DNA from: Levilactobacillus tongjiangensis
Lineage (GTDB): Bacteria; Bacillota; Bacilli; Lactobacillales; Lactobacillaceae
Reading direction: 5' to 3'
Assembly (NCBI RefSeq): GCF_003946345.1
Contig: NZ_RHNY01000002.1
Location: 124,001-188,000, forward strand
DNA: 64,000 bases
The notes under the pieces are model-generated. The model saw nothing but the letters and a program-made list of their open reading frames with translations. It had not been told where the DNA came from and made no database searches. Position numbers and translations under genes: made by a program. Positions 2,841 to 35,538 of this stretch are shown here, piece after piece. How positions within the stretch are numbered: position 1 is the stretch's first letter; every line of letters starts with the position of its first letter.

Positions 2841-3014
2841 TACTCAAGGTTGCAAGCACTGAGACGCCTTCTATTCCTGATACAACAAGAATTGGGTATT
2901 GGTGTTTAGTCCGAGATAGTGGGAAGTTACTGCCTTACTATTCGCTAAATTTGGACTGGAACGCGGTGGGCAGGGCAAGCCAAAGAGCGGTCTTGCCCCT
3001 CGCTTGAAGCCGCA
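2841..3014 (+). repeat. Structured intergenic repeat, copy A (partial)
   Basis: This is clearly homologous to the reverse complement of the distal 175 bp of copies B and C. It shares the word TTTGGACTGGAACGCGGTGG with copy C and the tail CTCGCTTGAAGCCGCAA. The core hairpin has GGGCAAG (2973-2979) pairing with CTTGCCC (2992-2998) around the 12-nt loop CCAAAGAGCGGT. The 3' half of the outer stem seen in B and C is missing because the element stops 3 nt before the stop codon of the ABC exporter gene. Confidence 0.8.
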
Positions 3015-3017
3015 ACA

Positions 3018-4859
3018 TTAAGCTAAATTATTACCGGCAAACTGACTGTTGTACAAGTCAGCGTAGAACCCATCGGCAGCCAGCAAGCTGTCATGGTTCC
3101 CCGTTTCAATGATGTGCCCGTGGTTCATGACCACAATGTTCTCAGCGCTTTGAATCGTTGACAACCGGTGTGCCACCACAAAGCTCGTTCGTCCGGCCAA
3201 CAGACGCTTCATTGCGTGTTGAATCAACATTTCCGTCCGCGTATCCACAGAACTCGTTGCTTCATCCAAGATTAGAACGTCTGGGTCGGCCACGAAGGCC
3301 CGAGCAATCGTCAACAATTGCCGTTGCCCTTGAGAAATGTTTGTGGCTGCTTCATTCAGCACCGTGTCGTAGCCGTCAGGTAGCTGGCGAATAAAAGTAT
3401 CCGCGTGAGCAGCCTTGGCAGCAGCGTACACGTCATCATCCGTGGCATCCTCGCGACCATACTTGATGTTATCAAAGATGGACCCGGTGAAGAGCCAAGT
3501 ATCCTGGAGCACCATGGCAAAATGGCGACGTAAATCCTTCCGATCAACATCCAAGGTATTTTGACCCCGATATTTAATCTGACCTGAACCAACGTCATAA
3601 AACCGTTCCAACAGGTTGATGATGGTCGTCTTACCGGCCCCAGTTGGCCCGACAATCGCAACCATTTCACCCGGTTTGACCTTCAAATTGAAGTCAGCAA
3701 TCAACGGATTACTTTCCACGTACTGGAAGGCCACGTCATCAAATTCGATGACGTTATCGGCCGGCGCAGTATGTTCTGGCAACTTAGCCGTAGCTGTATC
3801 AGTCATGTCATCTTCATCTAAAACGCTAAAGATCCGTTCAGCAGAGGCAATCGTCGCCTGAATCGTGTTCGTCAGATTGGCCATCTGCGTGATTGGTTGC
3901 GAAAATTGGTTGGTGTATTGCAGAAAGGCCTGCACATTACCCAAAGTAACAGTTCCGTTAGCTACTTGAATTCCCCCAATGACCGCAACGGCCAAGTAAT
4001 CCAGATTCTTCACAAAGTTCATCAGTGGGAAAATCAGACTGGACACAAATTGTGCTTTCCAAGCTGACTTATAGTACTTTTGGTTGTGCTCTTCAAATTC
4101 TTCTTGAGCTGCCTGTTCCCGATTAAACGTTTTGACCACAGTATGGCCAGCATAAGTTTCTTCAACCGTGTTGTTCAGCAACCCCAAGTTCTTTTGTTGA
4201 CTCGCAAAGAACCGTTGTGACTTAGGGGCAACCACCATCACGACTAATAGACTCAGTGGCACGGAGATCAACGCAACCAACGTCAACCATCCACTGATGG
4301 TAAGCATCATGTAAAGCACCCCGAAGAAAGTCAATACACTGGTTACCATCTGTGACAGCGTCTGTTGCAACGTCCCACCGATGTTATCCATATCATTGGC
4401 CATCCGGGACATCAGGTCCCCATTACTATGAGTATCGTAGTAACTAATTGGCAACCGTTGCATCTTTTCCTTAAGGTCTCGCCGTAACCGGTAAACGACC
4501 TTTTGAGAAATCCAGCTCATAATCAGCTGTTGAACGACCCCAAAAATGGCCGCACCAGCGTACATAATCCCAACAACTAACAGGATATGACCAATCTTAC
4601 CGAAGTCCACGGGCAAACTGTGAATGCCAATGCCGGCTTTCAGTTCAGCTTGGCCCTTCATCACACCCTTAAAGAGTTCCGTGGTGGCTTCCCCTGAGAT
4701 TTTTGGCGTCTTAATTTGAAGGACTACTGAGGCAACGGCAAAGACTAAGACTACCAGCAGACTCGGAATCCAGGCCTTCATGTATTTAAAGAGTCGAACC
4801 GTCGTCCCCCAGAAATTTTGTGGCCGCTGTTTCGTTGCGGACCCACGTCCATTACGCAT
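3018..4859 (-). CDS. ABC exporter, fused permease-ATPase, second subunit (LmrD/BmrD-like)
   Basis: The protein has about 613 residues: an N-terminal six-helix exporter domain (about 25-325) and an ATPase domain with Walker A GPTGAGKTT, signature ISQGQRQLL, Walker B LILDEATSS with the catalytic Glu, and H-loop AHRLST. It pairs with the upstream gene as a heterodimeric exporter of the LmrCD/BmrCD or YheHI type, which expel drugs or peptides; the substrate is unknown. The start is set at the ATG overlapping the upstream stop by 8 nt, served by a GGGGG/GAGG ribosome site. The partner gene is frameshifted, so the complex may be non-functional as sequenced. Confidence 0.85.
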   Translation of the reverse strand: MRNGRGSATKQRPQNFWGTTVRLFKYMKAWIPSLLVVLVFAVASVVLQIKTPKISGEATTELFKGVMKGQAELKAGIGIHSLPVDFGKIGHILLVVGIMYAGAAIFGVVQQLIMSWISQKVVYRLRRDLKEKMQRLPISYYDTHSNGDLMSRMANDMDNIGGTLQQTLSQMVTSVLTFFGVLYMMLTISGWLTLVALISVPLSLLVVMVVAPKSQRFFASQQKNLGLLNNTVEETYAGHTVVKTFNREQAAQEEFEEHNQKYYKSAWKAQFVSSLIFPLMNFVKNLDYLAVAVIGGIQVANGTVTLGNVQAFLQYTNQFSQPITQMANLTNTIQATIASAERIFSVLDEDDMTDTATAKLPEHTAPADNVIEFDDVAFQYVESNPLIADFNLKVKPGEMVAIVGPTGAGKTTIINLLERFYDVGSGQIKYRGQNTLDVDRKDLRRHFAMVLQDTWLFTGSIFDNIKYGREDATDDDVYAAAKAAHADTFIRQLPDGYDTVLNEAATNISQGQRQLLTIARAFVADPDVLILDEATSSVDTRTEMLIQHAMKRLLAGRTSFVVAHRLSTIQSAENIVVMNHGHIIETGNHDSLLAADGFYADLYNSQFAGNNLA

Positions 4860-6586
4860 CGACCTCATCCCCCTTTCGGAGTTGTGATTCTAGAATTTCT
4901 TGATAAGTTTTGTTCGTTGCTTTCAGTTCATCATGCGTCCCCTGACCAACGATCTGGCCACCGTCAATGACCAAAATCAAATCAGCGTCGGCGACGGTTG
5001 AAACCCGTTGAGCCACAATAACGGTGACGGCGGATTGGACTTGTTCGTCCTTCCGCAGGTCTTGCCGTAGAAGGGAATCTGTCTTGAAGTCCAAGGCAGA
5101 GAACGAATCATCAAAAATATAGACGCTCGCTCGCTTCAAAATCGTTCGAGCAATCACTAACCGTTGTCGTTGACCACCAGAGAAGTTTGCACCATCTTGT
5201 TCAACGACACCGTCCAGCCCGCCTTCTTCTTTAATAAAGTCGCTAGCCTGAGCAACGTCTAAAGCGTGCCAGATTTGTGCATCACTGGCATCCTTCATTC
5301 CGTAAACCATGTTACTTCTAACGGTCCCAGAAAACAGCACGGCTTTTTGTTGCGTAATGGAAATGGCATCATGCAAAGCTGCTTGACTGGCAGCCGTCAG
5401 CGCCGTCCCATTCAGTTTAATTTGACCACTTTCGGGATCAAACAACCGAGGAATCAAGTTAACTAGCGTGGATTTTCCAGAACCAGTCCCCCCAATAATA
5501 GCGACAGTCTGACCGGCCGTAGCTGAAAAGTTTACATCAGCCAATGCCAGCTTCTCAGCACCCGTATAACGGAAGTTTACGTGATCAAAGGTTAAGCTTG
5601 CTGGACCAGCTGGTAAATCAACGGGTTGATCAGCATCGTTGATCTTCGACTTGAGGTCCATCACTTCATTGATCCGTGCAGCAGAGGCTTGCGCCCGTGG
5701 CACGAAAACAAAGACCATCGATACCATCATGAAACTGATCAACAGTTGCGTGGCATATGTCATAAACGCCACTAGGTTCCCAACTTCCATGGCTTGTGAA
5801 CCAATCAATTGGCCCCCATACCACACGATACCGATGTTTGTGCCACTCACAATTAACGTGATGATTGGGAACATCAATGACACAATCATGAATACTTTAA
5901 TTCCCGTGTTCGTGTAGTCTTGGTTAGCCCCTTCAAACCGGTCTTGTTCAAACTGATCCTGGTTAAAGGCTCGGATAACCCGCACCCCAGTTAAACCTTC
6001 ACGAAAGACCAGGTTGATTCGGTCAATCTTCTTTTGCAGACTCTTGAAAAGTGGCACTGCAAAGAACATGATAGCAAAGGTAAACAGGGCTAAGACTGGC
6101 AAGGCTACTAAAAAAGACCACCGTCAACCGGGGACTCTTAATGTAGGCCAGAACACCCGCACCCACCAACATAATTGGTGCCATCAGCATCATCCGTAAC
6201 ATCTGAACCATCACGTTTTGAATTTGAACCACATCGTTGGTCGTCCGCGTAATTAATGAAGCGTTACCGACCGTTTCAAACTCTTCCGTTGAAGCAAAGG
6301 TTACCTTTTTAAAGATACCTGTTCGAATACGTTGGCCCATCTTTTGCGACTGCGTTGACGCAAAATAAACGTTACCAGCGGCCCCCAGTACTCCAATGAA
6401 ACTCAAGAGGAGCATTTGGCCACCAGTACGCCAGATATAACCAATGTCATTGTTCGCAATCCCCTTATCAATAATGTTCGAGGTTAGCGTTGGCAGCGAC
6501 AGGTCACAGGCAACTTGAATAATCATGAATCCCACAGCAAGGACTACTGCCCACCAGTCCAAGTGTTTTCGGGCAAGTCGCATCAT
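4852..6586 (-). pseudogene. ABC exporter, first subunit (LmrC/BmrC-like), frameshifted
   Basis: Two overlapping frames together make one full exporter. The N-terminal frame (from 6586) reads helices 1-4 up to SPRLTVVFF, then runs out of frame and stops at 6023. The C-terminal frame resumes at VALPVLALF and carries Walker A GGTGSGKST, signature FSGGQRQR and Walker B VYIFDDSFSALD. The break is at a run of six A at 6110-6115 (T on the coding strand); five would restore the frame. The Asp after Walker B replaces the catalytic Glu, as is usual for the degenerate-site subunit of such heterodimers. The cause could be a true mutation, slippage or a sequencing error. Confidence 0.8.
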
Positions 6587-6758
6587 TGCAATTTGGCCTT
6601 CTTTCTTTTTGGTATACTCTATAAATGTCTAAAACAGCATATGCGATAATTATACACGCATGAAAGCTGTTTGCAATAACGATGTACCAGAGAAATGAAG
6701 CACTGGTAAACCCCCAAATATTTGTTACAATGTAGACACCGAAGGGAGCAAGAAAACT

Positions 6759-7088
6759 GTGGCGAGTAACTCAGATTCAATCTATAACGTTCTAACGTAC
6801 ATCCACCGCCACCAACAAGATGTGTCCTTCATCCAACAGCGTAACAGCAACGTCGTTTCGATTGGCGTCCCTGACACTGTCAAGGTGGCCAATCCAGACA
6901 TCTACTTCCCAACTGACCGACTGCTAGTCAATCGGATGGATGAAGATTTTCTGGCTAAAAATGGTGACCTGCTGAATGATTTTTTCGACCGAACCAATAG
7001 TTCAAAGTTGGACTACTCAGAGGTCTGGATCACAACCGGGTACATTCAAGCCGAACACACTTACTTGGTGGAAATTTCATTTGAATAG
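6759..7088 (+). CDS. Hypothetical protein, 109 residues
   Basis: I do not recognise a family. It is a soluble, acidic protein without signal peptide or membrane segment; the C-terminal half is Asp/Asn/Tyr-rich (DLLNDFFDRTNSSKLDYSE). It starts at GTG with GGGAG about 10 nt upstream, and TACAAT about 20 nt before that could be the -10 box. It is divergent from the ABC exporter operon across 172 bp and closed by its own terminator, so it is very likely a real single gene. Whether it is functionally tied to the exporter cannot be told from sequence. Confidence 0.65.
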   Translation: MASNSDSIYNVLTYIHRHQQDVSFIQQRNSNVVSIGVPDTVKVANPDIYFPTDRLLVNRMDEDFLAKNGDLLNDFFDRTNSSKLDYSEVWITTGYIQAEHTYLVEISFE

Positions 7089-7100
7089 TAATCTACACAC

Positions 7101-7136
7101 AAAAAAAGACTGTGACCAACGTCATAGTCTTTTTTG
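7101..7136 (+). terminator. Intrinsic terminator
   Basis: AAAAAAGACTGTGAC pairs with GTCATAGTCTTTTTT around a CAAC loop. It follows the hypothetical gene directly. Confidence 0.85.
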
Positions 7137-7204
7137 TATTTGAAGGTCATGTAACTGTAGCGCAACGAACAGGTGAACCACCCACCAAGCCGGGCTGTTA
7201 GCTT

Positions 7205-7411
7205 TTAACTAAATAATGCTCGTGAAGCCCAGACGCCACCCCCGATGACCACCACGGCCACCAAGAAGAAGCGGAACAACGCCGCAAAGGCAACTAGTAC
7301 GACAACACCAATGATCAGCGTCCCCACCAGTCCCAGCAACCAGCCGGCCATACCAAAGACCAACCGCAAAATTGGAAATAGTAAAAGTAATAGTAACAGG
7401 CTCAATATCAC
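7205..7411 (-). CDS. Small hydrophobic membrane protein, 68 residues
   Basis: The product is almost entirely hydrophobic: Leu-rich residues 2-14, then two likely helices (about 18-45 and 46-62) with a short Arg/Phe break (ALFRFFL). It starts at GTG with a GGAG site about 9 nt upstream. No recognisable domain; such small integral membrane proteins are common in lactobacilli. Downstream on the same strand there is no clear terminator before the plus-strand terminator near 7101. The coding call rests on the ribosome site and the uninterrupted hydrophobic frame. Confidence 0.55.
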   Translation of the reverse strand: MILSLLLLLLLFPILRLVFGMAGWLLGLVGTLIIGVVVLVAFAALFRFFLVAVVVIGGGVWASRALFS

Positions 7412-7512
7412 GATGATCGCTCCATTCTGTCCGGGAATCCCTGACTAGCCATTATTCTACACCAATCAAGTCGGGCAAACACCTATCTTATATTTAGAAT
7501 TTTATAAAGAAA

Positions 7513-8637
7513 CTAACTGACGGTAATCTGGCGACGACCATGTTCCTTCGAGTGATACAGATTAGCATCGACCCGCTTGTAAAAGTCTAACGGGTTATGA
7601 TCTGCTGCACTCAATCCGGAAACCCCTACTGAGATGGAAACGCGTAAGATCGTTTCGTTGTACGGAATCTCTAAGCTATCAACTGCATTGAAAACTGCTT
7701 GGGCAACGGTCCGTGCCTGCTCCAAATCGCAACGCGGAAGGATAATGTTAAATTCTTCCCCACCCGTTCGATACAACACCATACCGCCGTCAATGGTCTT
7801 TAGCGCATCCGTCACAGACCGCGCTACTGCTTTTAAAACTTCATCACCCGCCAAATGGCCATAGGTATCGTTCACCTGTTTGAAGTGATCAATATCAAAC
7901 ATCACCATCGACAGATCTTCATTGTGCACGGAACTATTCTGAAAGCGATAGTTAATAGCCCGGTCGTAAGCTGCAAAGTTTTGGACGTGCGTCAGTGCAT
8001 CCCAGTTAGCCGATTGGAACAATCGGTCCTTGATGCGCCGATCCTTATCCTGAATCTTGAAGTAACCGTACATGAGGCTTGCCAAGACGGTATAATCGGC
8101 AATTTCAATCCAATAAGTCGCCATTCCCAGGTGAAAACGCACAGCGACCAGGCCCCACAGAACCAGGGCAAACGCTACCGCAATCGTGATGTAGCGTGTA
8201 AACGGCCAGCGCCACAAATGGATGCTCTGCTGGTAAGAAATCACGTAGAACAACACGAAAATAGTGGTGTAGACCCATGACAGTGGCGCTGTCACGTTAC
8301 CATTGATCAACATGAAGCCCACTCCGGAAATAAAAATCAACCAGTGCGGGATCTTAAGCTGTAAAAAGTAAGCCACAAATATCAGCAGTAGTAACTGAAA
8401 ATTGGTGAATGTCCACGAAAGGTGACTGTCGCGAACTAAAAACTGCAGGGCGAAAACGGAAACCACCGCGCAGGTCAGCCCAATGGCAATTTGAACCTTT
8501 TTAATGTCGATCGGCTTATTTTGCGATTCGACCTTTGCCGTTACCCAATTAAAAATGGACCAGTAAAGCGTGATAACGCCTAGTACAAAGAAAATACTGG
8601 TAATAATTGGGGGAACGAGCCACATCGTCCATGACAT
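7513..8637 (-). CDS. Membrane-bound GGDEF diguanylate cyclase
   Basis: The protein has 374 residues. The first 190 contain about six membrane helices (a sensor-like region), then a GGDEF domain with FDIDHFKQVNDTYGH (metal and substrate binding) and the active-site loop GGEEF at 292-296. The motif is intact, so it should join two GTP into c-di-GMP at the membrane. The RxxD inhibitory site is not evident: KTID lies further upstream than usual. AAGGAG precedes the ATG by about 10 nt. It is divergent from an EAL gene, giving a matched synthesis/degradation pair around one 287-bp regulatory region. Confidence 0.88.
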   Translation of the reverse strand: MSWTMWLVPPIITSIFFVLGVITLYWSIFNWVTAKVESQNKPIDIKKVQIAIGLTCAVVSVFALQFLVRDSHLSWTFTNFQLLLLIFVAYFLQLKIPHWLIFISGVGFMLINGNVTAPLSWVYTTIFVLFYVISYQQSIHLWRWPFTRYITIAVAFALVLWGLVAVRFHLGMATYWIEIADYTVLASLMYGYFKIQDKDRRIKDRLFQSANWDALTHVQNFAAYDRAINYRFQNSSVHNEDLSMVMFDIDHFKQVNDTYGHLAGDEVLKAVARSVTDALKTIDGGMVLYRTGGEEFNIILPRCDLEQARTVAQAVFNAVDSLEIPYNETILRVSISVGVSGLSAADHNPLDFYKRVDANLYHSKEHGRRQITVS

Positions 8638-8924
8638 AGAACCATTCTCCTTGTAAATTAAATATTTTAACTAACGATTTTGGCAATGATAACGGTAAAT
8701 CCCATTACCCACCAATAATTATACCGCGTTAATCACACGAATACATCCACTATAAACCTTTTCATATAATGACGCCATTTAAAAATATATATATTCTTAT
8801 ATCAAGTCGAGAACTCCAAAAATCTTTCCCTCAGTTATCTGCTTTCTGTGTTATTCCCCTATTTAAAATGGGAAAAATACAGTATGATGGTAACAGACAT
8901 TTCAAAAGGAGGCGCGCCAACACC

Positions 8925-9587: not shown

Positions 9588-9651
9588 TATTCTTCAATGA
9601 TGTTGTTTGGGCTAGTGGCGCCACTTTTAAATGAACTAATCGGTCAAACAT

Positions 9652-9992: not shown

Positions 9993-11759
9993 ATGCGGAA
10001 AAAGAAAACCAAGATTATTATTGGCATTTTACTAGCTGTTTTTGTTTTCTTGATCGGCGGTATCGGTATGACTTCAGTCACTGCTCAAGCCAAGAATATC
10101 CAAGTCGCCGGTTTAGGTGAAAATGATGCGGTTATCACGGATACCAATGGTAAAGTCATTCCTAACGGTAGTGATCTCAGTAAGTGGGACACCTATCAGG
10201 TTGACTACAAATGGGGTATTCCCGACGGCGTAGCCATTCAGGCCGGCGACACGGCAACTGTTACTTTTCCTCACTCAGCTGTCGGTCGGCGAGACGTTTC
10301 GTTCCCACTGTATGATGACAGTGGCCGGGAAATTGGGACATTTTCGATTAAGGAAGGTGAAAACACGGGGACTATCACCTTTAACGACACCCTATCCAGT
10401 ACGTCAACTAACCGTAGCGGCGACTTACATTTCTACGTCAAGGGAACCGAAGAGAATGCCAACATCGGCCTTGACTGGGGTATCAACAAGATTGGCTGGG
10501 TAGCTGAACGTAACTCAGATGGCTCCCCTGCATTACTCACCTGGAACATTGCGTTCAACCCCAACAGCACGAACTTAGGTCAAGCCGTTATCACTGATAA
10601 CCTCGGACCCGGGCAAAGTTACGTCCCCGGTAGTGTCCACGCCCAAACTGGAAAATTCGATGACACTGGTAGCTTTGTTAGTGACGGTGGTTCCATAACG
10701 CCTAACGTTGAAGCTGGCAATAGTACCGTCATTTTCACTTTTGAGAATGTCACCACAGCGGTGAACATGACCTATCACACGAAGCCGGACGTCTCCGGAA
10801 CTGGTGGCGCTTGGAAAAACAGCGTCTCACTTAATGGCCAAACCGTTAACTCTCAAATCGTTTGGGGCGGCGGTGGCACGGGTAACGGCGACAATGGCGG
10901 TGGTACCGAAGAGGAAGATTCTGGCTTAGTCAAACTGACGAAGACCGATAAAGCCACTGGCAAAGCGTTAGCCGGTGCCGTCTACGAACTCCAAGATGCA
11001 ACTGGCAAAGTTATCAAGGCCGATTTGACCACTAATGCTGACGGAACGATTACCTACGGCGGATTAGCCGCAGGCAAGTATCAATTCGTTGAAACCAAGG
11101 CACCCGAAGGCTATGAGTTGGATAAAACGCCAATTCCATTTGAAATTGAAGCTGGTTCATCCGCTGAAGTCAGTGTAACTGCTGAAGATACGAAGACGCC
11201 TGATACCACCGGACCCGAAAATCCTGGCACAACGACGCCACCAACTAATCCAGAGAATCCCGGGACGACAACGCCACCAACGACGCCAACTAACCCAGAA
11301 AAACCTGGTACCACAACACCTCCTACGACGACGCCAACCAATCCAGAGAATCCCGGCACGACGACGCCTTCCGTCAAGCCACCAAAGCCAACGAAACCGG
11401 TCAAGCCTACTAAGCCAGTTAAACCGGTGAAGCCTGTCAAGCCAAACAAACCTGCGAAGCCAAATAAGCCAATCACCTACCCAGGCAGTGGTCAAGCGAG
11501 TGGCAACGTGACAACCGGTGGGGCCGGTAGCAACATTTCCGGTGGGACTGGTTCTGAATCCACTGGTTACGGAGCTGGTAGCGGTAGTGGCACCTCAACC
11601 GCCGGTAGTGGCTCATCAACTGACAGTGGCAATTACGTCGGATCCACCCTGCCACAAACAGGCGAACACAAGACCAGTAGCTTCCTGCTAACACTTGCTG
11701 GATTTGCTCTGTTAATTACGACTAGTGGCCTCTGGATTCATCAGAAGCGGCATGAATAA
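9993..11759 (+). CDS. LPQTG-anchored adhesin with collagen-binding-type and SpaA-type domains
   Basis: The 588-residue protein starts after a perfect AGGAGG. Residues 1-33 are a signal peptide (MRKKK then a hydrophobic core). Residues about 38-300 resemble the paired Ig-like adhesin fold of Cna-type collagen binders (LLTWNIAFNP; VITDNLGPG). Residues about 312-395 are a SpaA/Cna-B prealbumin-like domain (KLTKTDKATGKALAGAVYEL ... FVETKAPEGY) with Lys, Asn and Glu positions typical of self-formed isopeptide bonds. A Pro/Thr/Lys-rich stalk of NPENPGTTTPP-like repeats follows, then a Gly/Ser region and sortase signal LPQTG (553-557) with membrane helix and basic tail. Ligand specificity is not predictable. 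Confidence 0.9.
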   Translation: MRKKKTKIIIGILLAVFVFLIGGIGMTSVTAQAKNIQVAGLGENDAVITDTNGKVIPNGSDLSKWDTYQVDYKWGIPDGVAIQAGDTATVTFPHSAVGRRDVSFPLYDDSGREIGTFSIKEGENTGTITFNDTLSSTSTNRSGDLHFYVKGTEENANIGLDWGINKIGWVAERNSDGSPALLTWNIAFNPNSTNLGQAVITDNLGPGQSYVPGSVHAQTGKFDDTGSFVSDGGSITPNVEAGNSTVIFTFENVTTAVNMTYHTKPDVSGTGGAWKNSVSLNGQTVNSQIVWGGGGTGNGDNGGGTEEEDSGLVKLTKTDKATGKALAGAVYELQDATGKVIKADLTTNADGTITYGGLAAGKYQFVETKAPEGYELDKTPIPFEIEAGSSAEVSVTAEDTKTPDTTGPENPGTTTPPTNPENPGTTTPPTTPTNPEKPGTTTPPTTTPTNPENPGTTTPSVKPPKPTKPVKPTKPVKPVKPVKPNKPAKPNKPITYPGSGQASGNVTTGGAGSNISGGTGSESTGYGAGSGSGTSTAGSGSSTDSGNYVGSTLPQTGEHKTSSFLLTLAGFALLITTSGLWIHQKRHE

Positions 11760-11963: not shown

Positions 11964-12037
11964 TCACCCGCACGGGGCTCGAACCCGTAACTCCGCCTTG
12001 AGAGGGCGACGTCTTAAACCAGTTTGACCAGCGGGCA
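11964..12037 (-). tRNA. tRNA-Glu (anticodon CTC)
   Basis: The cloverleaf has D stem GTC/GAC with loop AAACTGGTTTAA, anticodon stem TCGCC/GGCGG with loop CTCTCAA (anticodon CTC, codon GAG), and T arm ACGGG-TTCGAGC-CCCGT. The acceptor is TGCCCGC/GCGGGTG, so its two terminal pairs are U-G and G-U, which is weak. CCA is not encoded. A strong terminator follows. The C34 anticodon reads only GAG, so this is a minor isoacceptor beside a TTC species encoded elsewhere. Confidence 0.85.
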
Positions 12038-15050: not shown

Positions 15051-15123
15051 TTGGGTATACTGGACTCGAACCAGTAAATTACGGATTCAGAGTCCGCCGC
15101 CTTACCAATTTGGCTAATACCCA
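15051..15123 (-). tRNA. tRNA-Gln (anticodon CTG)
   Basis: Acceptor TGGGTAT/ATACCCA with unencoded CCA, D loop AAATTGGTAA, anticodon stem GCGGA/TCCGT with loop CTCTGAA (anticodon CTG, codon CAG), and T arm ACTGG-TTCGAGT-CCAGT. The U1-A72 pair is typical of tRNA-Gln. It is another C34 minor isoacceptor, 3 kb from tRNA-Glu(CTC). Confidence 0.9.
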
Positions 15124-20056: not shown

Positions 20057-20230
20057 AAATTAACTGAAAGTTTTTTAGGCGCTTTCAAATCACTTAAAGT
20101 GGGATTGTGCTGCTGTCATCAGCAAGCCAGGAGCCGACACATTTAGTCTTTACTAAAATCTTACTTACTAAAGGTTGAAAGTTCAAAAACTGTTACCAAG
20201 TCAAGAATAGCAAGGCGTTACAGACTTAAA

Positions 20231-20765
20231 CTTAGTCTCAGCCGGCCACCTGCGGCTGTCAGAGATTCCGCCTGCTGTGGGGAACACCTACGGCCTGAAA
20301 GGCGGTCCTTCGGCTCGGTTTGAAGCCTGGAAAACCACCAGTCTTCAAACACGTCCCACGCTGTAAGCCGAAAATCGGCTAACACCGTCGTCACAGCTGG
20401 CTCCATCTCTGACCACCTCCAGTTAAACGGGTTCTTGGAAACTAAGCTAGTTTAAATGCCTGAGTAACAGCACTTACGCAATATTATTGGTGTTCCACTA
20501 GGCAGCCGAGAGTGAGCCAAATTTGGACTCAGCCGTGGGATTTTCAAGTGATTTTCTTGAAAATGGCGACTTGAAGACGGGTTTTGCGGCTTCAAGCGAG
20601 GGGCAAGACCGCTTTTTGGCTTGTCCCGTCCTCCCCACCGCGTTCCGGTCCAAATTTGGCGAACGGTAAGGCGGCAATTTTCCACTAAATCTGACTAAAC
20701 CCTAATATCCAATCCTTGTTATATCAAACATAGAAGGTGTTTCAGTACCTTCAACCTTTACTTAT
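20231..20765 (-). repeat. Structured intergenic repeat, copy B (full, two head-to-head modules)
   Basis: Nearly collinear with copy C. The minus-strand module (20517-20659) has outer arms CCAAATTTGGACC and AGTCCAAATTTGG, a GTGGG/CCCAC inner stem, a core hairpin GGGACAAG/CTTGCCCC (one A-C mismatch) with loop CCAAAAAGCGGT, and a TTTTCAAG/CTTGAAAA side hairpin. The plus-strand module (about 20240-20400) carries related words GCGGTCCTTCGGCTCGGTTT and GAAGCC. Short frames inside both copies (for example one starting MEPAV) lack start signals and are probably by-products. Confidence 0.8.
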
Positions 20766-25602: not shown

Positions 25603-25970
25603 GGGGCCGTTCTGGATTCGACTGGTATAGGTTGAACCTTGACTGCGCGTCGTAGCGGCATCTACGTTAAAAGGTCCAGTTTATTATAACTGCAAAAAAT
25701 AATAACAATTCTTACGCTTTAGCTGCTTAATAGGCGCTTAACGTAGATCCTCCTAGGCTTGCCCGCGGTCTAGATCTGGGTCCTAAATTTAACGGGCTTA
25801 CGCTAACGGCTCCCACCTGAAGTACGTTAGAAGAGATGAATCAGGTTAGCTGAGTATGTGGGCCCTGACAGGCGGCAAGTTATTCAGTGAAACTATAAGT
25901 AGTCTGCCTATGCGTGTAGACGTTAAGGTGGCAATATGCTAGGACGCGGGTTCGATCCCCGCCGGCTCCA
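25603..25970 (+). ncRNA. ssrA: tmRNA (ssrA)
   Basis: The 5' end GGGGCCGTTCTGGATTCGAC and the 3' end GGTTCGATCCCCGCCGGCTC plus A form the tRNA-like domain (acceptor GGGGCCG/CGGCTCC, unencoded CCA). The internal tag frame (25692-25727) reads AKNNNNSYALAA then TAA, a tag known from lactobacilli, with the proteolysis-directing ALAA end. It rescues stalled ribosomes with SmpB. It lies on the opposite strand to its neighbours and has its own terminator. Confidence 0.98.
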
Positions 25971-26003
25971 TCTAAACGCCAGAAATGACTTAACCTATGA
26001 CGA

Positions 26004-29155: not shown

Positions 29156-29252
29156 GTCTGCCCCCTTTCACTAGTGATAACGAACGAGTTGGCAAAAGGT
29201 AACACCTATTTTCAAAAAAACACGTAATCGCAGTATACCTGAAAATAACGGC

Positions 29253-29285
29253 AAAAAAATAGTGACCGCCAATCAGGTCACTATC
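29253..29285 (-). terminator. Terminator downstream of fumC and repeat copy C
   Basis: On the minus strand ATAGTGACC pairs with GGTCACTAT around an 8-nt loop, followed by TTTTTTT. It is the first terminator after fumC, so copy C would be carried in the fumC 3' untranslated region. Confidence 0.85.
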
Positions 29286-29321
29286 CGTTGTAAATTCAAT
29301 TAAATTTGACTCTTTTACTTA

Positions 29322-29793
29322 AAATTAGCCTCACCCAGCCACCTGCTGCACTCAGAGATTCCGCCCGCTGTGGGGAACGCCTACGGTCTGAGAAGCGGTC
29401 CTTCGGCTCGGTTTGAAGCCTGGAAAACCACCAGTCTCCAAACACGTCCCACGCTGTAAGCCGAAAATCGGCTAACACCGTCGACACAGCAGGCTCCACC
29501 TCCGACCACCTTCGGTTAAACGGGTTCTTGAAAACTAAGCTAGCTTAAATGCCTGAATGACAGCACTTACGCAATATTATTGGCGCGCCACTGGGTAGCC
29601 GGGAGTGAACCAAATTTGGACTCAGCCGTGGGATTTTCAAGTGATTTTCTTGAAAATGGCGATTTGAAGACGTGCTTTGCGGCTTCAAGCGAGGGACAAG
29701 ACCGTCCTTTGGCTTGTCCCGTCCTTCCCACCGCGTTCCAGTCCAAATTTGGCGAACGGTAAGGCACAAGAACCCACTAGATTGCCTAAACGA
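29322..29793 (-). repeat. Structured intergenic repeat, copy C (full, two head-to-head modules)
   Basis: Collinear with copy B at high identity. The minus-strand module (29610-29752) has perfect outer arms CCAAATTTGGACT/AGTCCAAATTTGG, inner GTGGGA/TCCCAC, core hairpin GGGACAAG/CTTGTCCC with loop CCAAAGGACGGT, and side hairpin TTTTCAAG/CTTGAAAA. The plus-strand module (about 29338-29493) is bounded by CCTGCTG/CAGCAGG. The element runs up to the stop codon of fumC. Confidence 0.8.
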
Positions 29794-31182
29794 TCAGTTT
29801 CTAGTTCGATTGTTATTCGTCATTGCTAAGGGATCGACCCATTCATCAAACTGAGCCGCCGTCACTTTCCCAGACTGGATAGCAGCAGCTCGTAAAGTTG
29901 TCCCCTCTCGCTCAGCCTGCTGGGCAATTTCAGCGCTAGCATGATACCCAATGTGGGGCGAGAGAGCCGTCACCGTCATCAAGGACTGATCAACCAGTTC
30001 GGTCATCCGATCCGCATTAACAGTGAGTCCATGAATCAATTTGGTGGTAAAACTGGCAATCGTCCCGCTCAAAAGGTCCGTCGACTCCAAGAAAGTGGCA
30101 ATGATGACTGGTTTATAAACGTTCAATTCAAAATTCCCCTGGGAAGCTGCCATGGAGATCGTCACATCGTTGCCCATCACCCGTGTCGCCGCCATGGTCA
30201 GTGCTTCTGCTTGAGTGGGATTGACCTTGCCAGGCATGATTGAAGATCCCGGCTCGTTGGCGGGAATGTTTAATTCATTGTAGCCAGCCCGCGGGCCACT
30301 GGCCAAGAATCGAATGTCGTTGGCAATTTTCAATAGGTCACCGGCTAGCGTTCGAATAGCCCCGTGAACGACGGTTAAGCCGGAATGAGCAGCTAATCCA
30401 AAAAATTTATTTGTATCCGCAGTAAACGTCTGCTGATAGGCTTGGCTCAGCTCGGCGGCTACTGCGGCGGCAAATCCGGGAGCCGCATTTAATCCCGTCC
30501 CAACAGCCGTCCCACCGATTGGTAATTCCCCCAGCGTTGGTGCTAACGAGGTTAGGTAATCACGATCATGTTGCAAAGTGCTGACCCACCCACTGATTTC
30601 CTGACCAAAGGTTAACGGCGTGGCATCCTGCAAATGTGTCCGCCCAATCTTGACTACTTGCCAATATTCCTGTTGCTTCGTCTGTAATTCCGTTATCAAC
30701 GTATCCAACTGTGTAACTAGTTTAGTAACGGCCACGGTTGACGTCACGGCCATCGCCGTTGGAAAGGTATCGTTGGAACTCTGACCACGATTCACATCAT
30801 CATTGGGTAAAACCCCGCTTGTCGGATCGTACGTCACGGTTTGGTGGGCAATTACTTCATTGACGTTCATATTCGTCTGCGTGCCGGACCCCGTCTGATA
30901 GACCCGCAGCGGAAAGTCCTGCTGCAGTTGACTATCAGACAAATTTAACAGGTCCTCCGTGGCCCGAATAATCAATTGGGCCTTGGCCATTTGAATCTCT
31001 CCCAAGTCCCGGTTGGCAATGGCAGCTGCCCGCTTAAGCTGCAATAACGCGCGAATCAGGACCATTGGCATTAACGGTCCCGTCGTAAAGTTGTGGCGAC
31101 TACGCTCCGTCTGGGGGCCCCACAGAGCCTTAGCCGGGACCTTAACCGTCCCCAATGTATCCGCTTCTTCACGATAATCCAT
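29794..31182 (-). CDS. fumC: Class II fumarate hydratase
   Basis: The 462-residue length matches FumC. Motifs are the TGSGTQTNMNVNEVI region, GRTHLQDATPL and the superfamily signature GSSIMPGKVNPTQAEA with the catalytic Ser loop. It interconverts fumarate and malate; in lactobacilli it serves the partial reductive citric-acid branch or aspartate/malate metabolism. GAGGAAGAGG lies just ahead of the ATG. Its stop codon directly abuts structured repeat copy C. Single gene. Confidence 0.96.
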   Translation of the reverse strand: MDYREEADTLGTVKVPAKALWGPQTERSRHNFTTGPLMPMVLIRALLQLKRAAAIANRDLGEIQMAKAQLIIRATEDLLNLSDSQLQQDFPLRVYQTGSGTQTNMNVNEVIAHQTVTYDPTSGVLPNDDVNRGQSSNDTFPTAMAVTSTVAVTKLVTQLDTLITELQTKQQEYWQVVKIGRTHLQDATPLTFGQEISGWVSTLQHDRDYLTSLAPTLGELPIGGTAVGTGLNAAPGFAAAVAAELSQAYQQTFTADTNKFFGLAAHSGLTVVHGAIRTLAGDLLKIANDIRFLASGPRAGYNELNIPANEPGSSIMPGKVNPTQAEALTMAATRVMGNDVTISMAASQGNFELNVYKPVIIATFLESTDLLSGTIASFTTKLIHGLTVNADRMTELVDQSLMTVTALSPHIGYHASAEIAQQAEREGTTLRAAAIQSGKVTAAQFDEWVDPLAMTNNNRTRN

Positions 31183-31254
31183 CTTTCCTCTTCCTCTCTA
31201 AAACCTGATTACGTTCAATATACCGGGTGGTCCTGGTAACGTCAATCAATCCAC

Positions 31255-31300
31255 CAAAAAAGCCGACCCCGCAGGATCGACCACTTGGCTTCTATTATTT
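31255..31300 (-). terminator. Terminator of the AP2-domain gene
   Basis: On the minus strand AAGCC...GGTCGATC / GGGTCGGCTT arms are followed by TTTTTT. Confidence 0.7.
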
Positions 31301-31318
31301 GCTGGTTAATCCGCTGAA

Positions 31319-31813
31319 TTAGCCTTCAACGGAGGCTTTCATTTGAACATCATCACTTTTAGCCAGTTGTTGTTCCGCCTGCTTACGCGCCGCAACGGCA
31401 TCGTAGAAGTCGGTAAAGGTCTGGTTTAAGATGTAACGTCCGTGGTAGAACAAGCGAGCGGCCCATTTACCAGAACGCTTATCAAAACTCACACCGATAA
31501 CACCGGAAATGTTTCGGGAACTGATCTTAGTCAATGCAGCAACGTTGGAGCCATTCACCAATGGGAGGTTCATGGCATTGCCGATTTGCTTACGGGTCCG
31601 GGGATCCTTAGTCAATCGTTCCTTACTAATGTCACGACGATAACAGCCGCAACTAACCGTGATACCATGGCGCAAGCGGTAGCTGTCCACCGCCACTAAA
31701 TTGCCACAAGAACATTTACACAACCAGGTTGCGTTGCCGTTCTTAGCGGTACCGTCACGACGAATAACCGTCAGTCTGCCGAATTGTTCGCCAGTTAAGT
31801 CTAGGAGTCTCAT
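31319..31813 (-). CDS. AP2-like DNA-binding protein with zinc-finger-like N-terminus
   Basis: The 164-residue protein begins LLDLTGEQFGRLTVI, then CxCxC...CGC cysteines (WLCKCSCGN; SCGCYRR) resembling a small zinc-binding unit. It ends with an AP2-type beta-sheet domain: SGVIGVSFDKRSGKWAARLF ... TFTDFYDAVAARKQAE. These two modules normally accompany HNH homing endonucleases or phage regulators; no HNH nuclease motif is present here. It may be a domesticated mobile-element protein or a regulator. GGAGG precedes the chosen ATG by 8 nt. No phage genes are near. Confidence 0.8.
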   Translation of the reverse strand: MRLLDLTGEQFGRLTVIRRDGTAKNGNATWLCKCSCGNLVAVDSYRLRHGITVSCGCYRRDISKERLTKDPRTRKQIGNAMNLPLVNGSNVAALTKISSRNISGVIGVSFDKRSGKWAARLFYHGRYILNQTFTDFYDAVAARKQAEQQLAKSDDVQMKASVEG

Positions 31814-32029
31814 GGGTAATTCCTCCATTCAAAATTTCAAATAGGTCTGTCGTTCTGCCGTTCTCCCCGTGAATGAACTGAGTTCCCCTGACAAAAACAT
31901 CCTCACTTAATTATTCTACACGCCAAACTAAAATTTAGCTTAAAGTTTTAAACATTTTGTCGTTCAATGGGTAATGACCCACACCGTTAAGTTATACTAT
32001 AACTAATCACTAGAAAGAAGGCAATAATT

Positions 32030-32401
32030 ATGATTTTAATCAGTACAATCTTAATTAATTTAATCGGTCTCGAGCACGTATTCATCATGTGCCTAGAAAT
32101 CTGGGGGAAACCTGAAACACAGGCTAAGGTATTTGGTATGCCCCTCAGCTTTGTTAAACAAGCCCCTGCGAAGGCAGCCTTAGGTAATATGGGAATTTAC
32201 AACGGGATGCTGGGCTTCTTAATTTTAGCCAGTCAACGTGTCCTAACCACCGAACCACGTTTGATCATTAACTCACTTTTGATGATTTTTGTCGTAATTG
32301 TGGCCCTTTTCGGTGCCTTCACCGTTAAAAAGGAGATATTTTGGCTGCAAGGAATGCCGGCGTTACTGACGTTTTTCGTTTTACTAATCTTAATCTTTTA
32401 A
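32030..32401 (+). CDS. DUF1304 membrane protein
   Basis: The 123-residue protein has four predicted helices. LIGLEHVFIMCLEIWGKP in helix 1, the NMGIYNGMLGFLI motif and the C-terminal helix match the DUF1304 family (YqhA-like four-helix proteins). The function of the family is not known. AGAAGG stands 8 nt before the ATG. A TATACT box 30 nt upstream may be its -10. The next transcription unit on the same strand begins 20 nt after its stop with its own promoter. Confidence 0.85.
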   Translation: MILISTILINLIGLEHVFIMCLEIWGKPETQAKVFGMPLSFVKQAPAKAALGNMGIYNGMLGFLILASQRVLTTEPRLIINSLLMIFVVIVALFGAFTVKKEIFWLQGMPALLTFFVLLILIF

Positions 32402-32421
32402 AAGAATCTTGTGTTTTACGG

Positions 32422-32450
32422 TTTACAGGTCTTGCTCACCACGTTATAAT
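32422..32450 (+). promoter_or_regulatory. Sigma-A promoter of a small transcript
   Basis: TTTACA (32422-32427), exactly 17 nt, then TATAAT (32445-32450). No long ORF follows before a terminator 115 nt downstream. Confidence 0.75.
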
Positions 32451-32456
32451 GTAGGT

Positions 32457-32593
32457 ACATATTCAGGTGAGAGCCTGCCACGGAACTTCAATCGTTGGAG
32501 GAGTTAATTGACATTTTGCCATTATTAACACCATTGAAGCCGTACACATACTTCTATTCTGCTGGTTGCGTCCATTCGTAACTAGCTTTTTTT
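32457..32593 (+). ncRNA. Free-standing small transcript, candidate sRNA or micropeptide gene
   Basis: It runs from the expected start after the TATAAT box to an intrinsic terminator (GCTGGTTGCG / CGTAACTAGC, 10 bp, TTTTTTT). Inside, GGAGGAG (32497-32503) looks like a ribosome site. It could serve a TTG-started 21-codon frame at 32516-32581 (MPLLTPLKPYTYFYSAGCVH then S) whose stop lies inside the terminator stem, or a 6-codon frame from TTG 32508. No family recognised. Precise ends are inferred. Confidence 0.55.
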
Positions 32594-32613
32594 ATGGTCT
32601 TTTTTAGAGCAAG

Positions 32614-32649
32614 AATCCCATCACCTGCCGCATGTCGGGTGATGGGATT
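32614..32649. terminator. Strong hairpin, probable minus-strand terminator
   Basis: AATCCCATCACC pairs with GGTGATGGGATT (12 bp). It lies 50 nt below the small minus-strand membrane-protein gene and may serve both strands, though the T-tracts are short. Confidence 0.55.
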
Positions 32650-32701
32650 GTTTAAGTTATTTAACGCTTTGATCCCAAAGTAATCAGGGACCAACACTTT
32701 T

Positions 32702-32818
32702 CTACATTTGACTAGCAGCCAGCCACAGATGAATCATGTGGTAAATAACCAGCGCCATCGTCCCAACAAATAAACCTCCGCCAAGATAATACAGATAATA
32801 CATCACTGGATGTTTCAT
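32702..32818 (-). CDS. Small membrane protein, 38 residues
   Basis: The frame MKHPVMYYLYYLGGGLFVGT continues to MALVIYHMIHLWLAASQM, with one membrane helix (about 7-34). AGGGGG lies 8 nt before the ATG. A hairpin lies downstream. It is below the size most gene callers accept. No homologue recognised; the call rests on ribosome site, hydrophobicity and position in otherwise empty DNA. Confidence 0.55.
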   Translation of the reverse strand: MKHPVMYYLYYLGGGLFVGTMALVIYHMIHLWLAASQM

Positions 32819-32907
32819 CCTATTGCCCCCTCGTCGACCTTCATTGTTCTAAGCCTACCATGGGTGCGTTCTGTGACTGTACTGTGGGTCTTAGTACCTG
32901 TACTAGA

Positions 32908-33087
32908 CTAACTAACTGAAGAAACTTCTCGACGTTGAGCAGCAGCAATAATAGCCTCCTGTTCAGCAATCGTAGCCGTAAACCGGGTCATCATTTCACG
33001 TTCGACTACCTGGGCACCGTGCTGTTGCGCTCGCCAACTGATCATCTGAAACTTCTTGCGCTCGTTTGACAGCTCTTCCGTTAACAT
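32908..33087 (-). CDS. Small helical cytosolic protein, 59 residues
   Basis: The frame MLTEELSNERKKFQMISWRA...REMMTRFTATIAEQEAIIAA is Glu/Arg/Ala-rich and predicted helical, possibly a coiled coil. GGGGGGAG lies 5 nt before the ATG. It sits 89 bp upstream of the 38-residue membrane protein on the same strand, so the two could be one transcript ending at the 32614 hairpin. No family recognised. Confidence 0.55.
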   Translation of the reverse strand: MLTEELSNERKKFQMISWRAQQHGAQVVEREMMTRFTATIAEQEAIIAAAQRREVSSVS

Positions 33088-33455
33088 TTGGCTCCCCCCA
33101 AACTCTAATCGCCAGTGTTCTCTTACTTGTCCCCTACATTATAACAAATTATTTTAGCCGGTCTACCCCAAATGGATAAAAAATACAAAAAATTTACATA
33201 AACCCGTTTACTTACATTGCCCGCTATGACGCTATTACTATTAGCTTGTAAATCCATTTACGGATAATTCGTTGACGGTTTATTATATGATTGGTATAGG
33301 TATGCCGTGCAACCGGTTGACCGCTAGCCATTCCTTAACTTTGTGCAACAGTTTAATCAGTCAATAGTCAGTGGTTTAGCTCTATAGAAAACCCTTACAT
33401 TTATACAGCGAATTCATTGTTTTTTACCTGAAAACAGCGTAATCTAGAGGTAAAT
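33088..33455. other. Gene-free AT-rich stretch
   Basis: No ORF with a ribosome site. TTGACG-N17-TATAGG near 33270-33300 is a possible plus-strand promoter, but nothing obvious follows until the OsmC gene. No repeat or clear hairpin seen. Confidence 0.35.
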
Positions 33456-33468
33456 ATAAGGAAAGAAG

Positions 33469-33927
33469 TTGACCTCTTTGGCCATTGACCGTAAAAAATT
33501 TCCACCACTGTACCGAACCGTTGCTATCAATGATGACGGCCTTGAAAGTCACTCCTACGTTCCCGGTGGCCTGGATGTACTGACCAGCACCCCACTCAAT
33601 GACCAACCGGGAGCAAATCCAGAACAATTCATTGGTTTGGCACTCAGCACCTGCCTCAATGCTACGTTGGAGGCAATTGAAAAACGTCGTGACCTGCCCC
33701 ACACCTCGCAAGTTCACACGATTGTTGAAATGGCTCGGGACCAGCGTGGTTTTCAATTTTACGTAACCGCTCAGATTCGCCTGCCTGGCGTTGATCAAGA
33801 AACCGCTGAAGCAATGGTTGATCTAGCTGAACGGCGGTGTCCCGTTGCCAAACTATTGGGTGGTAGCGAAAATGTTCACGTTGAGCTCGTTAAGGAGTTC
33901 TCACCGGTTCCTACAGTGACTGAATAA
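33469..33927 (+). CDS. OsmC-family peroxide-detoxifying protein
   Basis: The 152-residue protein has the two OsmC/Ohr cysteines: ALSTCLNATLEAI (in the long helix) and ERRCPVAKLLGG (resolving Cys near the C-terminus). Such proteins reduce organic peroxides with a dihydrolipoyl or thiol donor in the cytosol. The start is TTG, with AGGAAAG about 7 nt ahead; the next Met would remove part of the first strand. Single gene with a bidirectional terminator shared with the convergent small gene. Confidence 0.85.
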   Translation: MTSLAIDRKKFPPLYRTVAINDDGLESHSYVPGGLDVLTSTPLNDQPGANPEQFIGLALSTCLNATLEAIEKRRDLPHTSQVHTIVEMARDQRGFQFYVTAQIRLPGVDQETAEAMVDLAERRCPVAKLLGGSENVHVELVKEFSPVPTVTE

Positions 33928-33935
33928 TTAGTCCG

Positions 33936-33987
33936 AAAAAAATGGGCCACACTCCCTAACTCAGTTAGGGTCGTGTGGTCCATTTTT
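33936..33987. terminator. Bidirectional terminator
   Basis: AAAAATGGGCCACAC and GTGTGGTCCATTTTT form the outer stem, CCCTAACT/AGTTAGGG the inner one. Confidence 0.9.
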
Positions 33988-33989
33988 CG

Positions 33990-34163
33990 TTAGCGTCGGC
34001 TTAAACGTTCTCTTAGTCGTTCCCACCACGAGCGTTGGGTGGATTCACCATACACAAAAGACCGTGGATGCCGTGACGCCCGCTTGTCATCGTGGCCATC
34101 ATCCATGAAGACAATCTTGCGCCAGCGCTTTGCTTCCTCATCACTCATGCGCTTTTTGCTCAT
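33990..34163 (-). CDS. Small highly charged hypothetical protein, 57 residues
   Basis: MSKKRMSDEEAKRWRKIVFM followed by a DDGHDDKRASR stretch and an Arg-rich end (RLRERLSRR). It is very basic at both ends and may bind nucleic acid, but no family is recognised. AAGGAG lies 10 nt before this ATG; eight further codons are open upstream. It sits 63 bp after the MarR gene on the same strand, probably in one transcript that ends at the shared terminator. Confidence 0.55.
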   Translation of the reverse strand: MSKKRMSDEEAKRWRKIVFMDDGHDDKRASRHPRSFVYGESTQRSWWERLRERLSRR

Positions 34164-34226
34164 TGACTTCAATCTCCTTCTTACCACCGCGGTTAGTCCG
34201 TGGCGTTTACTCTCTTAAACCGTTCA

Positions 34227-34670
34227 CTACTTTTTCATCCGTGTCACTTGACTAAAGTCTTGAATAAACTGCAAGATTTGCCGAGCACGGTCGTCACCGT
34301 AAACGTCGACCCATCCCTGAAACCGTTTATTGATTCGCTGTCGGATAACCCGTTCAGCCTTGGCTCCCTCGGGCGTTGCTAATAAGTACAGCCGTCGCCG
34401 ATCATTTTCATCTGGTCGCTGCTGTAGATAGCCTTGCTTCAACAATACTTTGATCTGCCGTGAGATAGCGCTGCGGGTCACTTGCCGCTTACTGGCAATG
34501 TCCATCAGCGTCACGTGTTCATTACGGGTTACGTCCCGCAGAATCAAGTATTGCTCAAACGACAAGTGAAACTCTTTAGCCGGTTCCGAAACGAACTCGT
34601 CCAAATACTTGAGTGAATTCATGTAGACGTCGATAAAAGCGTCCAACAAAGGTTGTTCTTGCTCAACCAT
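34227..34670 (-). CDS. MarR-family transcriptional regulator
   Basis: The 147-residue protein has a winged helix: LTRNEHVTLMDIA-type region, recognition helix RQVTRSAISRQIKVLLKQGY and wing RPDENDRRRLYLLATPEG. These are the standard MarR motifs, including the DxR wing tip. It binds DNA as a dimer and typically controls its own and neighbouring genes. AGGTGGG precedes the ATG. The ligand and targets are unknown; the divergent lipoprotein across 142 bp is the obvious candidate. Confidence 0.9.
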   Translation of the reverse strand: MVEQEQPLLDAFIDVYMNSLKYLDEFVSEPAKEFHLSFEQYLILRDVTRNEHVTLMDIASKRQVTRSAISRQIKVLLKQGYLQQRPDENDRRRLYLLATPEGAKAERVIRQRINKRFQGWVDVYGDDRARQILQFIQDFSQVTRMKK

Positions 34671-34812
34671 AATTACCCACCTACATTTCTCAAAATACGA
34701 TTTTTATCTTAGCATTTACGCCCACTAAATACCAGCTTTTTCGCGCTACATAACCGGTGCTCTGGACCAACCTATGCTAAAATATAGGTAAGCAAACCGA
34801 GGGGGAAAATGC

Positions 34813-35406
34813 ATGATGTCACACGTAAAATTTATCACAGTAATTAGCAGTCTGTTGCTCCTAGCTGGTTGCGGTACCGTCAACAAATCCGGTGCCACTA
34901 AACCATCCAGTCAACAGGAACCGGCCACCACTAAAAGTAGCGGTCAATCGCATAAAACCAGCACCAGTCACACTAGTAGTTCGGCTAGCTCGCACAAGCA
35001 AGCCAAGACCGCAACCTTTGCCAATCAGACTTTCACGATTAAAGACGTCGCCTTCAAACTGACTGCCGACAAGATTACCACCAGTGCCACCGCTAACCGG
35101 AATCTGTTCGTTCTCTATTATACCGTAACCAACAACGGAACGCGCGATGTCGTGCCTAGTGACCTGTGGCAATCCGCGGTCAGTGCCACCCAGAATGGCA
35201 AAAAATTGGGGACTGGGAACCTAGCATTTACGACCAGCCAAACCCAGGATAACAACAAACTCAATCGTACCGTCATGCCAGTAAAGCCCGGCCAGACGGT
35301 CACCGGCTTGGCTACGTTCGAACCCAAAGGTAACCAAACGATTACGGTAATCTTTAAGGATACCCACAACCAGATTGTTCACCAGAGCACCTATCCTTTA
35401 AACTAA
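34813..35406 (+). CDS. Lipoprotein with DUF4352-like domain
   Basis: The 197-residue protein has a lipobox LLAGC (Cys about 21), a Ser/Thr/Lys/His-rich linker (about 25-65) and a beta-sandwich domain with YYTVTNNGTRDVVPSDLWQS and PGQTVTGLATFEPK, the DUF4352 (Ig-like) pattern. It is anchored to the outer face of the membrane; the function is unknown. GAGGGGGAAAA precedes tandem ATGs; either may be used. The structured element D begins shortly after its stop. Confidence 0.8.
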   Translation: MMSHVKFITVISSLLLLAGCGTVNKSGATKPSSQQEPATTKSSGQSHKTSTSHTSSSASSHKQAKTATFANQTFTIKDVAFKLTADKITTSATANRNLFVLYYTVTNNGTRDVVPSDLWQSAVSATQNGKKLGTGNLAFTTSQTQDNNKLNRTVMPVKPGQTVTGLATFEPKGNQTITVIFKDTHNQIVHQSTYPLN

Positions 35407-35451
35407 CTTAACAATTCCGTGGGCTGGTAACAACTTCCGGTAGACGCGGGC

Positions 35452-35538
35452 GGTGGTCGGTTGTGAGGGACGGTGAAAGCCATAGTACGGTCTTTCACCT
35501 CGACTTTGAGCCGCGTAAAAACCACACTGCTGACCACC
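35452..35538 (+). repeat. Structured intergenic element, copy D (divergent single module)
   Basis: Core stem GGTGAAAG (35472-35479) / CTTTCACC (35492-35499) closes the 12-nt loop CCATAGTACGGT, then TCGACTTTGAGCCGCG follows. Outer arms are GGTGGTC/GACCACC plus TGTG/CACA. Stem sequence differs from copies A-C but pairing, loop length and conserved loop/tail words are kept. The remaining 150 bp to licD are gene-free. Confidence 0.65.

Follow-up and report, generated by a model that had tools for sequence, protein, structure and literature searches.

An apparently undescribed MITE-type family with inverted multi-hairpin modules in Levilactobacillus tongjiangensis and other Lactobacillaceae

A 64,000-nucleotide stretch of the Levilactobacillus tongjiangensis genome (referred to here as the window) carries four intergenic loci, copies A to D, that share a hairpin whose stem arms differ from copy to copy and still pair. 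A first-pass annotation attributed this pattern to selection on an RNA fold and named two candidates, a structured RNA and a mobile palindromic element. The loci raise the question of what kind of element the hairpins belong to and in which molecule their pairing matters. When the four loci were read directly, the stems and loops claimed for them were present where they had been placed. A covariance model trained without A and D still recovered both (34.7 and 26.1 bits, respectively), which supports the assignment of all four copies to one family. This is a real and large MITE-type family with inverted multi-hairpin modules that seems to be undescribed.

Copies A to D and the complete element

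In its full form, the element has 14-bp terminal inverted repeats (TIRs; CTAAAGGTTGAAAG), encodes no consistent protein and contains two inverted copies of a four-stem module of approximately 145 nt. A 221-bp query from copy C gave at least 40 matches in the L. tongjiangensis genome (40 of 78 candidates were scored), and 30 matches from this genome, aligned with their flanks, define a unit of approximately 600 bp that starts with CTAAAGGTTGAAAG and ends with CTTTCAACCTTTAG. The elements that were delimited range from 209 to 615 bp in length, with some copies lacking the first or second module or part of one.

Copy B is a complete element of 594 bp on the minus strand (20168-20761; profile match 20772-20164) with no recognisable target duplication. 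Its left TIR lies at 20748-20761 (minus strand, two mismatches) and its right TIR, which is exact, at 20168-20181. The first module, with a closing stem and three hairpins, occupies 20516-20660 on the minus strand (150.1 bits, E-value: 2.7e-31, using the broader of two covariance models, as for the scores that follow in this section), while the second, inverted with respect to the first, occupies 20258-20413 on the plus strand (48.3 bits, E-value: 1.1e-8). Copy C is an internal part of an element on the minus strand (29317-29791, with limits set by blastn against 29 other loci) that has lost its outer ends and TIRs; a TIR was searched for at both ends and none was found. It also has both modules, the first at 29609-29753 on the minus strand (152.8 bits, E-value: 7.2e-32) and the second, inverted and with a degraded outer stem, at 29363-29494 on the plus strand (31.8 bits, E-value: 5e-5). 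Two earlier descriptions can be amended accordingly. The three-way junction proposed for B and C refolds as claimed, but it comprises four stems, since the third of its hairpins (CTTGAAG/CTTCAAG in B) had been overlooked. Likewise, the hairpin unit that had been taken as the whole repeat is real, but is actually a module within an element of approximately 594 bp with a second, inverted module.

Copy A is a 5' fragment on the plus strand (2843-3015; profile match 2833-3015) consisting of the left end, with a TIR at 2843-2856 (two mismatches), the first hairpin and half of the second hairpin. Its module match (2944-3084, 37.6 bits, E-value: 3e-6) is convincing over approximately the first 70 nt only and poor over the remainder. 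Copy D is a shortened and diverged module on the plus strand (35443-35546, 44.1 bits, E-value: 9.4e-8) with the outer stem GGTGGTC/GACCACC and element ends that are not clear. The two genes that flank it are 301 bp apart in the window, 25 bp apart in Levilactobacillus angrenensis (locus L031) and 63 bp apart in an uncultured relative (L032); the copy D insert is absent at the orthologous sites of these two relatives. The protein adjoining copy C is 83% identical to its counterpart in L. angrenensis, the best-scoring named relative among the matches listed. In L031, a T-box leader (11466-11702) is located just 3' of the orthologue of copy C's neighbour gene, while the window has copy C there instead. 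The window also holds a tmRNA gene (25603-25973, plus strand) and three tRNA genes (11964-12037, 15051-15123 and 47173-47244, all on the minus strand), which are ordinary.

Evidence for mobility comes from the element ends. Among 70 loci of the L. tongjiangensis genome, picked by similarity or terminal repeat and not by duplication, 32 have both TIRs (up to three mismatches each). Seventeen of these 32 are flanked by a 7-8-bp target duplication with no more than one mismatch, compared to 1.6% in a control with flanks mispaired between copies; under the same tolerance, the 8-bp register alone accounts for nine of the 32. In genome G320, from another genus (g38), elements were picked for paired terminal repeats, and 17 of 19 carry a duplication (control: 1.2%). 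With up to one mismatch allowed, the TIR greatly outnumbers the same pattern read backwards in G320 (132 versus 0), G223 (76 versus 1), G178 (72 versus 1), G005 (54 versus 1) and G032 (33 versus 1); with up to two mismatches, the counts in the L. tongjiangensis genome are 116 versus 40. Elements with these TIRs and duplications were found in three genera of the Lactobacillaceae (g1, g5 and g38). The ends do vary: in G019 (g1), homology begins at GCCTTACCGG, adjoining the closing stem. An automatic end search recovered convincing terminal repeats at only a few of 53 loci, and per-genome comparison did better. The first model finds opposite-strand module pairs at short distance in five of 52 sources and the broader model in 32 of 90, some of the 90 having been fetched because their module pair was already known.

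Based on the TIRs at both ends and target duplications at frequencies above control, the suggestion of a mobile palindromic element is supported. Retrotransposition, a candidate in view of the 5' truncation of C and other copies, was ruled out by complete copies with TIRs at both ends, many of them with target duplications. Two arrangements in the L. tongjiangensis genome were observed in addition. At locus L010 (contig C39), a second TIR-like sequence (CTAAAGGTTGAAG) starts right after the target duplication, which suggests side-by-side insertion. At L293 (contig C34, 17178-18740), five module matches on both strands within about 1.1 kb form a nested or clustered array.

Covariation, wobble and the level of selection

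The first covariance model was built from 13 modules of the L. tongjiangensis genome (including B and C, with A and D left out) and two modules of L. angrenensis. It scores C at 173 bits and B at 171 bits; B and C match the models by construction, while A and D do not. The search proposed along with the hairpin family recovered all of A to D and found related modules in Lactobacillaceae genomes. Relative to shuffled sequences, refolding of the named strand gives z-scores of -6.6 for C, -4.7 for B, -3.2 for D and -1.4 for A, the last of these being weak because A is a fragment. The opposite strand is at least as stable as the named strand (C -7.2, B -5.7 and D -4.2). At gathering score, no copy matches any family of Rfam 15, and the sole matches at E-values up to 1 around A and C are irrelevant.

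The compensating base changes proposed for the stems are real. In an alignment of 59 modules to the first model, double changes occur in all 51 pairs and 95.2% of cells are paired (68.4% in shuffles). With 130 modules (128 of them distinct), double changes occur in 49 of 51 pairs and 91.4% of cells are paired (63.6% in shuffles), percentages that are inflated as the alignments were fitted to the structure. For the 128 distinct modules the covariation score is 0.587, compared to 0.147 in shuffles, and a shift of one to three columns between partners abolishes the signal. Double changes number 1,678 cells versus 476 in shuffles, a comparison that is not a probability given that the module sequences are related; these changes are too numerous to be explained by structure-fitting alone. 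Across genera, the loops are conserved, as are the innermost first-hairpin bases (columns 45-48 and their partners). The bases of the proposed loop-loop pseudoknot vary little among copies, and the data are hardly informative on that pairing.

A stem that is selected as RNA accepts G-U pairs and rejects A-C, and wobble is the usual signature of RNA covariation. In the modules, G-U and A-C are about equally common at variable pairs (210 versus 205 cells), and G-U is the rarer of the two at pairs that are at least 50% Watson-Crick (95 versus 193) and at pairs that are 90% Watson-Crick (39 versus 62). RNase P served as the yardstick, with sequences from 30 congeneric genomes (33 matches exceeded the cut-off and 30 of them were used); its corresponding counts are 175 versus 1, 63 versus 1 and 10 versus 1. 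This yardstick is somewhat generous, since the RNase P structure was predicted with RNAalifold, a program biased towards G-U relative to A-C. Of the 210 G-U cells, 148 fall in four junction pairs (columns 20-274, 30-264, 31-263 and 32-262) and may reflect either wobble of the kind seen in RNA or bases that do not pair; columns 35-89 and 100-167 hold 72 of the 205 A-C cells. Both sets of columns may be unpaired in certain subfamilies. Some of the non-Watson-Crick pairs that recur often in the L. tongjiangensis genome read as A-C on the named strand and hence as G-U on the other. An attempt to name the RNA strand by wobble asymmetry was abandoned, as the excess of A-C over G-U on the named strand is too slight. 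Between lineages, the stems have been rewritten repeatedly yet remain Watson-Crick complementary, with no preference for G-U on either strand. The pattern is most simply read in one of three ways: the pairing is important at the DNA level, folding is required of both strands, or an arm is copied onto its partner.

Diversity along the element was determined from 25 copies of the L. tongjiangensis genome that cover nearly the whole element. The two modules are the least diverse parts (0.086 for the first and 0.112 for the second), followed by the spacer (0.177), the right end (0.242) and the left end (0.278). Only the second module provides a fair test, as the copies had been gathered through their similarity to the first module and to part of the spacer. 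For the second module, pairing was assigned from the fold predicted for the consensus. Private mutations there hit paired and unpaired positions at practically the same rate (0.029 and 0.028), while variants carried by more than one copy show a 5.6-fold deficit at paired positions (0.0125, compared to 0.0705 at unpaired ones). As private mutations ignore pairing and shared variants avoid pairs, it appears that single copies decay freely and that only spreading lineages have kept their pairs. In the first module, singletons are at 0.0106 at paired positions versus 0.0248 in hairpin loops, a deficit that hints at selection on copies, although this is weakened by collection through that same module. 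The original proposal of selection on an RNA fold is therefore not upheld: neither strand shows the G-U preference seen in RNase P, and single second-module copies decay without regard to pairing.

Distribution, neighbouring genes and candidate partners

With the first model, the 2.72-Mb draft genome of L. tongjiangensis contains 77 module matches. With the broader model there are at least 144, as well as at least 127 in G005 and at least 150 in G030 (150 candidates scored in each of the three genomes). Within the genus, 32 of 35 genomes have first-model matches; G004, G012 and G025 have none, though most of their sister genomes carry tens, and would serve as natural negatives in looking for a putative partner enzyme. 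A survey of the Lactobacillaceae with the same model, using stricter filters and ten scored candidates per genome, found matches in at least 61 of 301 genomes and at least 10 of 40 genera, counts that are lower bounds. Across the class (seven candidates scored per genome), matches were found in at least two of 398 genomes, these being L. tongjiangensis and G560, a member of another family in the same order and the sole occurrence outside the Lactobacillaceae in this survey. The four modules of G560 (L202, L204, L206 and L208) are shorter and lack the first hairpin, but retain the closing stem and the second-hairpin loop. No match to plasmid or phage records was found at an E-value of 1e-5, which is odd for an active transposon. 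Three plasmid matches at E-values up to 1 are at chance level, and none of 26 viral contigs with the core-loop pattern fits the model at an E-value of 0.01 or below.

Copies of the element sit between many different gene pairs. Using a crude open-frame rule, both neighbours could be called for 24 of 28 copies in the L. tongjiangensis genome: 16 lie between tandem genes, six between convergent genes and two between divergent genes. Three of the 28 overlap a long open frame.

A partner transposase was sought through the TIRs, which were mapped in L. tongjiangensis, G032, G005, G223, G178 and G320 (with G320 represented by part of its places and G223 by its count). No TIR pair with up to one mismatch and a spacing of 0.7-5 kb was found among the places listed for the L. 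tongjiangensis genome (100 of 116), G032 and G005. Five longer convergent pairs of 1.2-5.1 kb were read: one in G320 (3.7 kb), two in G178 (4.8 and 5.1 kb) and two in L. tongjiangensis (1.2 and 1.7 kb, each with one two-mismatch end). These were rejected as autonomous partners because, judging from translations, their long frames resemble sugar-polymer, transporter, regulator, peptidase and membrane-protein genes and not transposases. A protein encoded by the second module was also considered, as copy B has a frame of about 62 aa with a ribosome-binding-site-like start. The frame is legible in 24 of 25 copies, ten of which stop before 55 aa; because it shifts and ends early across copies, it was not treated as a gene.

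Explanations and relationship to known systems

The explanation that we favour, at a probability of roughly 0.7, is that these elements are non-autonomous DNA transposons (MITE type) of the Lactobacillaceae. A transposase acting in trans would move the element, and only source copies that retain the fold would be able to spread. The fold might be used as DNA, in the form of a hairpin on single strands or a cruciform, or as RNA from either strand; with its inverted module pair, the element would work alike whichever strand is read. A narrower version is offered tentatively, and we regard it as doubtful: a cut-and-paste element with mobility dependent on a folded, cloverleaf-shaped DNA module in two inverted copies, such that a putative transposase recognises both the folded DNA and the terminal repeats. 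The places searched yielded neither an insertion sequence sharing these ends nor a copy on a plasmid or phage, so this transposase is possibly a resident chromosomal enzyme.

Other explanations account for part of the same evidence. The strong covariation, seen in every stem, and the conservation of loops would fit an ordinary one-strand structured RNA with a role in the cell or in transposition and with the MITE body as its carrier, and both the G-U cells at the junction and the A-C pairs that read as G-U on the other strand could be cited in its favour. We nevertheless consider it unlikely given that G-U does not outnumber A-C overall on either strand (compared to 175 to 1 for RNase P), that no Rfam family matches and that copies are located between many different gene pairs. 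Matching arms might instead be the product of mutation, with template switching during replication copying one arm onto the other and the pairing without function. Such a process fits arms that change jointly and almost strictly as Watson-Crick pairs, with few wobble intermediates, as well as second-module copies that decay regardless of pairing. Pure arm-copying does not, however, predict loops and innermost first-hairpin bases conserved across genera, and the second-hairpin loop is kept even in G560, where the first hairpin is missing; this explanation, too, is improbable.

A role in host-level regulation, in which the elements would act as bidirectional terminators, mRNA stabilisers or nucleoid sites and be retained because they affect adjacent genes, is very unlikely. 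The orientation of the elements relative to these genes and the greater conservation of the modules compared to the remaining element would be consistent with such a role, but the position bias is equally expected from the purging of harmful insertions, private second-module mutations show no protection of pairs, and no T run follows the first-module hairpins in copies B and C. If the elements are instead MITE-type transposons whose spread depends on the fold, wobble-free covariation would provide structured-RNA screens with a cheap test separating folded-DNA or both-strand elements from RNA genes. Lactobacilli would then hold a widespread family with directly testable mobility (at least 144 module matches in one genome and at least 10 of 40 genera), and a search for a transposase with CTAAAGGTTGAAAG ends would become possible.

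Compared to structured RNAs, the modules have the covarying stems but not the tolerance of G-U above A-C. Wobble-free covariation would likewise be expected of folded single-stranded DNA that is read by a recombinase, as with integron attC sites and REP/RAYT hairpins. REP elements moved by HUH enzymes of the IS200/IS605 or REP/RAYT type are not known to leave a target duplication, while the elements described here do have such duplications.

The elements agree with MITEs in having TIRs at both ends, target duplications, short length and no transposase gene, although they are not AT-rich (copy B has a GC content of 49% and the window modules 50-60%). AT-richness is described as a typical rather than a strict MITE feature in the portion of a MITE review considered here (PMC10969869). 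Bacterial MITEs covered there, such as ERIC, Correia and QMITE2, are likewise short, non-coding, mostly intergenic and foldable, with TIRs, duplications and tens to hundreds of copies (PMC10969869). The elements described here differ from them in their two inverted multi-hairpin modules, in stems that have been rewritten in a near-strictly Watson-Crick manner across genera, in GC content and in that no related insertion sequence was found in the places searched. The first-pass annotation had allowed that a MITE family might account for all copies; this is largely true in kind, but no described MITE family was identified in the literature. The string "Lactobacill" does not occur in the main text of PMC10969869. 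Searches of the mainly open-access literature, including parts of PMC2267715, PMC2864571, PMC10969869 and PMC3049150, brought up no report of the family among the papers listed, though its absence in print is unproved.

A systematic search for stem-loop sequence families deals with the same type of object and includes Lactobacillus johnsonii among its genomes (PMC2267715). In the part of that survey considered here, L. johnsonii is the only lactobacillus in the list of low-GC genomes and no family matching the module is described. The BOX elements of Streptococcus pneumoniae, which belongs to the same bacterial order, are similarly modular, multi-copy, MITE-like and able to form stem-loops (PMC3049150). 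BOX elements are built from boxA, boxC and tandem boxB units whose number varies, and are thereby set apart from the Lactobacillaceae elements with their two inverted modules.
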